A DNA stretch of 64,000 nt from contig OZ020521.1 of assembly GCA_963971425.1 (NCBI GenBank), positions 10,309,519-10,373,518 of the forward strand, given 5' to 3'. Positions 39,628 through 41,529 of this stretch are shown here, in pieces; within the stretch, counting starts at the first letter, position 1; each line of letters opens with the position of its first letter. Made by a program: the position numbers and the translations under genes. Below the pieces are notes generated by a model. The model saw only the letters and a program-made list of their open reading frames with translations, was not told where the DNA came from and ran no database searches. This DNA is from Bryoerythrophyllum caledonicum (taxonomy: Eukaryota > Streptophyta > Bryopsida > Pottiales > Pottiaceae).

Positions 39628-41529
39628 TTGACAAACAATGCTGCAATAAATCTAAATACAATAGTATACATATATACTACAATAAATAATAATAAAAGCT
39701 GGAAAAAACATCACAAAAATTCACACAAAACAAAAACTAAAACCAAGATTTTAGTATATATATATACTACTAATCAAAACAAAAACAACAACAACAACAA
39801 CAACAACAACAACAACAACAACAACAACAACAACAACAACAACAACAACAACAACAACAACAACAACAACAACAACAACAACAACAACAACAACAACAAC
39901 AACAACAACAACAACAACAACAACAACAACAACAACAACAACAACAACAACAACAACAACAACAACAACAACAACAACAACAACAACAACAACAACAACA
40001 ACAACAACAACAACAACAACAACAACAACAACAACAACAACAACAACAACAACAACAACAACAACAACAACAACAACAACAACAACAACAACAACAACAA
40101 CAACAACAACAACAACAACAACAACAACAACAACAACAACAACAACAACAACAACAACAACAACAACAACAACAACAACAACAACAACAACAACAACAAC
40201 AACAACAACAACAACAACAACAACAACAACAACAACAACAACAACAACAACAACAACAACAACAACAACAACAACAACAACAACAACAACAACAACAACA
40301 ACAACAACAACAACAACAACAACAACAACAACAACAACAACAACAACAACAACAACAACAACAACAACAACAACAACAACAACAACAACAACAACAACAA
40401 CAACAACAACAACAACAACAACAACAACAACAACAACAACAACAACAACAACAACAACAACAACAACAACAACAACAACAACAACAACAACAACAACAAC
40501 AACAACAACAACAACAACAACAACAACAACAACAACAACAACAACAACAACTACAACTACAACAACAACAACAACAACAACAACAACAACAACAACAACA
40601 ACAACAACAACAACAACAACTACAACAACAACAACAACAACAACAACAACAACAACAACAACAACAACAACAACAACTACAACAACAACAACTACAACAA
40701 CTACAACTACAACAACAACAACTACAACAACAACAACTACAACAACAACAACTACAACAACAACTACACCCACACCCACACCCACACCCACACCCACACC
40801 CACACCCACACCCACACCCACAACCACAACCACAACCACAACCACAACCACAACCACAACCACAACCACAACCACAACCACAACCACAACCACAACCACA
40901 ACCACAACCACAACCACAACCACAACCACAACCACAACCACAACCACAACCACAACCACAACCACAACCACAACCACAACCACAACAACAACCACCACCA
41001 CCAAAAGATAAAGCCCCCAATGACATCAAAAACAACAACAGCAACAACAGCAACAACAACAACAACATCAACAGTAATAAACCTCCAAAGACACCAACAA
41101 CAACAAAAACCCCAACAACTCCAACCACCCAAACAAACCCTACAAAACCTAAAACCCCAACAACAACAATACCCTACCACAATCTACCTGTGTAAAATAT
41201 TAATACTTCTCAGCGGTGACATTGAAAAAAACCCAGGCCCGATGCCAAACATAATAAAAACACACCCCGCAGCTCATAAAAAACGGGCAAAAATGTACTT
41301 CATCCCTAGTACTATAAAACTACACCCCGAGTATCAACACTTTGCTAACACATTTTCACCACTACTAAAGAATACACATGAACTACATAACTCACATAAC
41401 ACGACCTACCCGCATATAGCACACTACATTGGACAGAAAACTACACATCCCCCATCACATATCCTATATGCTTTAATTATTACAGTACACCCCTCTCTAG
41501 AAGACTGCAACCAAATATTAGCCCTATAA
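39628..41529 (+). CDS. LINE ORF2, N-terminal segment: poly-Asn tract and 2A motif
   Basis: Opens at ATG 39628 (MTNNAAINLNTIVYIY). Codons 53-380 are Asn with scattered Tyr, then nine Thr-His and 27 Asn-His repeats, from the microsatellite 39784-40983. After a Gln/Thr/Pro-rich linker comes YLCKILILLSGDIEKNPGP (41185-41241), a 2A-type skipping site. Another 95 codons (MPNIIKTHPAAHKKRAK...) lead to TAA at 41527. The same frame then stays open to 43311 with no new ATG before the endonuclease, so the TAA is most simply a nonsense mutation inside one long ORF2. Skipping would release the homopolymer-bearing leader from the enzymatic polyprotein. Confidence 0.75.
   Translation: MTNNAAINLNTIVYIYTTINNNKSWKKHHKNSHKTKTKTKILVYIYTTNQNKNNNNNNNNNNNNNNNNNNNNNNNNNNNNNNNNNNNNNNNNNNNNNNNNNNNNNNNNNNNNNNNNNNNNNNNNNNNNNNNNNNNNNNNNNNNNNNNNNNNNNNNNNNNNNNNNNNNNNNNNNNNNNNNNNNNNNNNNNNNNNNNNNNNNNNNNNNNNNNNNNNNNNNNNNNNNNNNNNNNNNNNNNNNNNNNNNNNNNNNNNNNNNNNNNNNNNNNNNNNNNNNNNNNNNNNNNNNNNNNNNNNNNNNNNNNNNNNNYNYNNNNNNNNNNNNNNNNNNNNYNNNNNNNNNNNNNNNNNNYNNNNYNNYNYNNNNYNNNNYNNNNYNNNYTHTHTHTHTHTHTHTHTHNHNHNHNHNHNHNHNHNHNHNHNHNHNHNHNHNHNHNHNHNHNHNHNHNHNHNHNNNHHHQKIKPPMTSKTTTATTATTTTTSTVINLQRHQQQQKPQQLQPPKQTLQNLKPQQQQYPTTIYLCKILILLSGDIEKNPGPMPNIIKTHPAAHKKRAKMYFIPSTIKLHPEYQHFANTFSPLLKNTHELHNSHNTTYPHIAHYIGQKTTHPPSHILYALIITVHPSLEDCNQILAL
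39784..40983 (+). repeat. 1,200-nt in-frame CAA / CACCCA / CACAAC microsatellite
   Basis: 39784-40767: 328 codons of AAC with a few TAC, almost perfect CAA repeat until about 40550. 40768-40821: nine ACCCAC units. 40822-40983: 27 AACCAC units. Total length is exactly 400 codons and the reading frame is kept throughout. The complementary strand gives long spurious poly-Val, poly-Cys and poly-Leu frames. Confidence 0.97.
41185..41241 (+). other. 2A ribosome-skipping motif
   Basis: Encodes YLCKILILLSGDIEKNPGP followed by Met. The core matches D(V/I)ExNPGP with the usual upstream Leu-rich stretch and SG. Skipping is expected between Gly (41236-41238) and Pro (41239-41241). Such motifs occur near the ORF2 start of some animal and trypanosome LINEs. 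Confidence 0.9.

Follow-up and report, generated by a model that had tools for sequence, protein, structure and literature searches.

The locus described here raises the question of whether a land plant carries, near the start of the second open reading frame (ORF2) of a LINE, a 2A sequence of the kind that makes ribosomes skip a peptide bond (StopGo). 2A skipping is known in viruses and in some animal and trypanosome elements. In the window, by which we mean the whole 64-kb stretch of DNA that was analysed, the pattern GD(I/V/M)ExNPGP has a single match, both strands considered. No match is found in 100 shuffles, and the expected number is about 3e-6 in the six frames of the window, given residue composition, and 6e-6 in ORF2, given amino-acid composition. 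The original prediction, that this segment matches the 2A consensus and lies near the ORF2 start of a plant-genome LINE, is borne out on both counts. The core DIEKNPGP conforms to the StopGo core (D/G/C/N)(V/I)ExNPGP, the preceding LILLSG of the window family has the leucine-rich context with (A/S/C)G before the Asp, and the motif, conserved and part of a longer open frame, stands 65 codons after the first ATG and upstream of the endonuclease. We therefore consider it highly likely, judging by sequence, that the segment is a 2A of the functional type, close to the ORF2 N-terminus in a young, abundant plant LINE family, and skipping is predicted to occur at it.

The features of the LINE copy that holds the segment are collected in Table 1. 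Since 9 of 200 random pairs of equal lengths share a match of 13 bp or longer, its target-site duplication gives moderate support only to the proposed ends. The strand is A-rich over most of 34.75–48.25 kb, with a few unskewed inner bins and a skewed flanking bin (34000–34249), and strand composition and element boundaries agree only loosely. ORF1 has no significant match in Pfam; 16 of its 86 scored relatives (the best 86 of 3,725 candidates) lie, by eye, in open frames of 1,629 codons. The AP endonuclease matches Exo_endo_phos_2 (1.1e-5) and Exo_endo_phos (3.1e-5), both slightly under the gathering score. The C-terminus reads like a REL region by its motifs; HMM and PDB searches returned no supporting match for it, and the C-terminal model has a pLDDT of 37. 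Rfam has no match anywhere in the window.

Table 1. Features of the window (positions in the 64-kb stretch).
Feature	Position	Strand	Evidence or remark
Second LINE copy, diverged, decayed, 5′-truncated, from a related family	4792–7877	+	
5′ target-site duplication TTAGCAGACTTAT	34307–34319	.	exact 13-bp match to 48517–48529
Complete LINE copy, ~14.2 kb	34320–48516	+	target-site duplication, A-rich strand composition, ORF1 and ORF2 content
ORF1 frame, disrupted in the window copy	34754–39547	+	open 34754–36859 and 37268–39547, one frame
(AAC)n-rich tract between ORF1 and ORF2, ~1.24 kb	39778–41019	+	no ATG in any frame
ORF2 leader, 65 codons from first in-frame ATG to GD	41020–41214	+	Thr/Gln/Pro-rich, hydrophobic at its end
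2A/StopGo segment	41185–41241	+	translation YLCKILILLSGDIEKNPGP; predicted skip form YLCKILILLSGDIEKNPG/P
2A core GDIEKNPGP	41215–41241	+	nonapeptide at the C-terminal end of the segment
Predicted skip site	Gly 41236–41238 / Pro 41239–41241	+	
ATG immediately 3′ of NPGP	41242–41244	+	MPN(I/V) after NPGP in 30/30 pattern loci
In-frame TAA, lesion of the window copy	41527–41529	+	
AP endonuclease	41890–42633	+	motifs WNAAS, QETK, LYMP, GDFN, SDH
Frame change of the window copy, in a frame overlap	43236–43311	+	single frame here in 6/20 copies
Reverse transcriptase	43746–44537	+	YIDF, YADD; RVT_1 5e-29
PCIF1-like domain, between RT and RNase H	46011–46385	+	PF12237 9e-10
RNase H (D-E-D-H)	46797–47222	+	PF00075 2e-13
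REL-like region	47589–48035	+	motifs only: C-x2-C-x9-H-x4-C, RHN, KPD...E
3′ target-site duplication	48517–48529	.	13-bp direct repeat of 34307–34319
SAM synthetase	53852–55096	-	PDB 6vcz, 6vcx, 6vcw at 797–829 bits; next group, isoform type-2, 548 bits
Third LINE copy, ends at window edge	63819–64000	+	

A search of the 437-Mb host assembly (G000; the window lies on contig C9) with GD(I/V/M)ExNPGP as a degenerate DNA pattern gave 825 + 796 = 1,621 exact matches, and the reversed control gave none. Among the 100 sites listed, the most frequent form is, by eye, GDIETNPGP; GDIEKNPGP is present at 47 sites in the genome. The first 30 loci by position, all on contig C1, have the same residues after NPGP (Table 1), and thus they represent the same kind of LINE. 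Seven of these 30 (L012, L020, L021, L022, L023, L026, and L035) also contain, upstream, a decayed duplicate of the 2A together with the N-terminal part that follows it, and NPGP is found in none of the duplicates; since they represent about three lineages, they are only suggestive.

How well do these sequences fit the StopGo class? According to PMC12846837, a StopGo core preceded by an LLLLSG-like class of sequence is tied to Asp at position one of the core. LILLSG-DIEKNPGP fits that class, and the GG-DIETNPGP subfamilies differ from it at one position. Among the subfamily contexts, LIILCG agrees with (A/S/C)G, and LLLLGG and LILIGG do not; GG precedes the Asp in 11 of 22 subfamilies, outside the class as printed, which counts against a functional 2A. 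The nonapeptide GDIEKNPGP itself is also that of the Providence virus 2A3, for which PMC8623073 gives about 94% cleavage; here, it is found in a plant retroelement. In addition, an N-terminal 2A functions in Nicotiana benthamiana cells (PMC4981915).

The window copy is broken by its stop codon and its frame change, which would suit a chance motif, or the relic of one, in a dead element. This reading is already contradicted by the 1,621 genome sites, the uninterrupted copies and the selection pattern, and we give it next to no credence. The copies were sampled through the endonuclease: the best 40 of 2,557 candidate hits, the window included, were taken without regard to 2A. GDIEKNPGP lies 0.6–1.0 kb 5′ of 30 of these 40 hits, and of 30 of the 34 hits with at least 96% identity (window included). 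The six hits at 91–92% identity lack GDIEKNPGP, the single form looked for. Twenty copies other than the window copy were fetched from among the 40 hits. Nineteen of them retain the 2A region, which reads GDIEKNPGP in 17. The two others, L051 with a frameshift within the 2A and L058 with NPSP, are disrupted elsewhere too; in L056, the 2A region is missing.

Six of the 20 fetched copies (L042, L043, L044, L045, L050, and L055) have one uninterrupted frame from the 2A through the endonuclease, RT, PCIF1-like and RNase H domains to the C-terminus, with a predicted product after the 2A of 2,342–2,377 residues. Intact copies without the motif, which would speak against the original prediction, were not encountered, as all six carry it. 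Four of the six differ from one another by 1–5 mismatches and at most three gap positions over 7.4 kb; therefore, the family has moved very recently. Because six copies read through in one frame, a programmed frameshift between endonuclease and RT was rejected.

Hits to the distal domains count partly for and partly against the main reading. Over the stretch of contig C1 whose sites are all listed, a 2A is found near the expected distance at 6/6 C-terminal-domain hits (from the best 117 of 9,648 candidates) and at 8/16 PCIF1 hits, one of the eight being 1.1 kb off. The eight PCIF1 hits there without a listed 2A have open frames no longer than 644 codons, and three of those with a 2A are equally short. 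Among the 150 scored PCIF1 hits, 33 lie, by eye, in a 3,087-codon open frame; of the 33, three fall on the fully listed stretch of C1, each with a 2A 4,773 bases upstream. For 24 C-terminal hits (the window copy and 23 others whose frames have 2,300 codons or more), GDIEKNPGP occurs 6.0 kb upstream in 11; one of the remaining 13 has GDIETNPGP, and the other 12 were scored for GDIEKNPGP alone. One C-terminal-domain hit, G000:C10:661159-662196, lies in a 4,622-codon open frame and could be an ORF1–ORF2 fusion. In locus L025, an ORF1 remnant, poly-Gln and the 2A–ORF2 share one open frame, by eye, which prompted the idea of an ORF1–2A–ORF2 polyprotein. As a rule for the family, this was rejected, none of the scored ORF1 relatives (best 86 of 3,725) lying in a frame longer than 1,721 codons.

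In the window copy, the 2A-bearing frame is open from 39511 to 41529, all three frames are free of ATG from 39639 to 41019, and the first ATG of the 2A frame, at 41020, is 3′ of the (AAC)n tract. Since the first ORF2 ATG is 3′ of the tract, the poly-Asn is probably untranslated and outside the ORF2 protein. The tract is also length-variable: pure AAC runs are present in 16 of the 17 fetched copies with an intact 2A, with a summed length of 27–705 nt, and in the remaining copy all the AAC runs are shorter than five units. In the uninterrupted copy L055, the tract falls in a different frame. Therefore, the proposal that skipping frees the enzymes from a poly-Asn leader is not supported, and the predicted skipping product would instead be a leader peptide of about 73 residues without poly-Asn.

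Where, then, would translation of ORF2 begin? An in-frame ATG 64–66 codons 5′ of GD is found in just 12 of the 17 copies with an intact 2A, and L055 has no in-frame ATG 5′ of the 2A, whereas the ATG that follows NPGP is almost always conserved, as a start codon would be; these points, together with the broken state of the window copy, count against our main reading. They invite the proposal that ORF2 starts at the ATG after NPGP, present in 30 of 30 pattern loci, and that the 2A-like stretch is untranslated or a by-product. The lack of coding constraint in the leader would agree with this proposal. We calculated pN/pS for 20 of the 30 pattern loci, aligned without gaps from the motif, with near-duplicates, L017 and L033 excluded; as the loci were selected for the 2A, the flanking codons are informative and the core is not. 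The leader gave 1.09 and 1.07, that is, no constraint, values that may partly reflect misalignment, and its positions −40 to −13 are highly variable in 22 non-redundant loci. By comparison, pN/pS is 0.45 for codons −7 to −1, 0.46 for +12 to +24 and 0.39 for +25 to +60. The search left positions −6 to −2 free, and there the 22 loci have Leu or Ile, one Phe and two Ala excepted; the codons also show synonymous changes. Coding constraint thus sets in at codon −7 relative to GD, where the leucine-rich stretch lies. Since it begins 5′ of the ATG that follows NPGP, it argues that the 2A stretch is translated. Furthermore, untranslated DNA would hardly be expected to keep a StopGo consensus over many subfamilies, and uninterrupted L055 has Val in place of Met right after NPGP. 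On balance, a start after NPGP seems improbable.

It could also be that the motif is translated and acts mainly as a ribosome pause, a partial terminator or a membrane-targeting signal, the enzyme being mostly a fusion or not made. A hydrophobic stretch does precede GD; PMC4981915 describes N-terminal 2As of sea-urchin NLRs as combining a signal sequence with recoding, and termination by some viral 2As has been reported (PMC11512398). However, the hydrophobic stretch of the ORF2 leader begins about 53 residues after the first ATG, away from the N-terminus, and the core matches a viral 2A given as highly efficient in PMC8623073. We regard this possibility as quite unlikely, a shade more so than the downstream start.

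Returning to a 2A at which ribosomes skip, we infer as follows where initiation takes place, that skipping occurs and what the element gains from it. Ribosomes may start in the A/C-rich leader, either at the ATG that lies about 65 codons 5′ of the 2A or, once ORF1 has been translated, by re-initiation. As the leucine-rich stretch and DIEKNPG are read, the Gly–Pro bond would not be formed, and a leader ending in Asn-Pro-Gly would be released. Translation would then resume to give a separate protein starting P-MPN and containing the AP endonuclease, RT, PCIF1-like, RNase H and REL-like regions. The release of the leader and the Pro-Met-Pro-Asn start are expected from the fit to the StopGo class, the Providence virus core and the activity of a 2A in N. 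benthamiana. Because the leader derives from unstable repeats, with AAC runs that differ widely between copies, the 2A may shield the enzyme N-terminus from a microsatellite-derived leader and provide a constant N-terminus whichever start is used.

It is tempting to extend this proposal to a land plant with a large, still mobile LINE radiation, in which the 2A serves as an N-terminal insulator and (AAC)n, being unstructured, as a conduit that leads from ORF1 to ORF2. We offer this tentatively, as something that may well turn out otherwise; if true, no earlier natural use of StopGo would be known in plants, and StopGo would have gained a new role. The (AAC)n tract, free of ATG, is reminiscent of the leader of tobamoviruses, which is rich in CAA and enhances translation.

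The trypanosome L1Tc and the elements of Odon et al. 2013 are reportedly APE-type LINEs in which a 2A lies early in the enzyme ORF, 5′ of the AP endonuclease, and is said to split off a short N-terminal part. The position of the 2A in the window element is alike. The window element differs in its land-plant host, RNase H, PCIF1-like domain and REL-like C-terminus, as well as in the long ATG-free (AAC)n tract before ORF2 and an ORF1 frame of about 1.6 k codons. PMC4981915 places 2As in non-LTR elements of trypanosomes and sea urchins and, without giving a list, in “a range of other species”, and PMC12846837 found no evidence for the use of StopGo by plant viruses. In agreement with the original prediction, which knew of no plant example, we found no plant 2A-bearing LINE in the open-licence literature searched; the main survey of 2A-bearing LINEs lies outside that scope, and priority is unproven.

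To which group of LINEs does the element belong? Against the PDB, its RT scores best with three R2 sequences (1e-32 to 7e-29), then with L1 (2e-20). Two “reverse transcriptase-like protein” chains, which we take to be R2 of Bombyx, rank under L1 (6e-17 and 1e-15). These scores do not separate R2 from L1. In its domains, the element resembles Dualen/RandI of the green alga Chlamydomonas, which has, according to PMC4640811, PMC3636483 and PMC3747384, an AP endonuclease 5′ of the RT, an RNase H and a REL. The window element has the same order of AP endonuclease (Pfam just under gathering, motifs present) and RT, an RNase H and, by motif, a REL-like region. Unlike Dualen/RandI as described there, the comparison being by description only, it has a land-plant host, a 2A and a PCIF1-like domain.

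The land-plant LINE superfamilies listed in the available part of PMC9033089 are L1 and RTE only. The window element shares with plant L1 a plant host, an AP endonuclease and two ORFs, and with plant RTE a plant host and an AP endonuclease; it is unlike both in its C-terminal region and its 2A. The RNase H of plant L1 is of the archaeal type, with Arg in place of His (PMC4640811). In contrast, the RNase H of the window reads, by motif, as having His (VRAHANIDGNEQAD) and does not fit the archaeal type. Outside the host genome, no relatives were found among viral contigs searched with the RT, the RNase H to C-terminus region, the endonuclease and the 2A pattern, nor RT relatives in a genome-contig collection; as both collections are viral or prokaryotic, this carries little weight.

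The PCIF1-like domain scores 38.8 bits with PF12237 (PCIF1_WW), above the cut-off of 31.1. The PDB PCIF1 chain 6irx_A reaches an E-value of 0.055 only, under an unrelated chain (0.007); therefore, the assignment rests on Pfam. The motif NPPF is the catalytic motif of the PCIF1 m6Am methyltransferase. It appears as ANPPF in the aligned PDB chain and is absent from the PCIF1-like domain, which has AHPHN in the window copy and AHSNN in the related second copy. Between these two copies, the domain is 60% identical, with a pN of 0.27 and a pS of 0.68 over 100 codons. In the host genome, all 150 scored hits (the best 150 of 2,614 candidates) pass the Pfam cut-off, and none of 14 control genomes has a match. 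The predicted structure of the region has a pLDDT of 29. LINE proteins with a PCIF1 domain were not found in the open-licence literature searched.

The 1,621 natural 2A-pattern sites, some of them in near-identical uninterrupted copies, would show that plants carry StopGo and would offer, for plant ribosomes, a large collection of naturally occurring 2A variants. The element would extend the 2A-bearing LINEs, and perhaps the Dualen-like LINEs, to land plants and tie them to a PCIF1-like domain.

Elsewhere in the window, interspersed repeats at 11.8–12.6, 18.2–18.9, 49.3–49.8, 51.8 and 58.3–59.1 kb are about 69–96% alike and occur in both orientations, and 200 N bases lie within 18863–19352. 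The closest PDB matches of the SAM synthetase are presumably plant enzymes, and the isoform type-2 group that scores next is presumably animal. A WRKY domain and a family-1 glycosidase are found near this gene.
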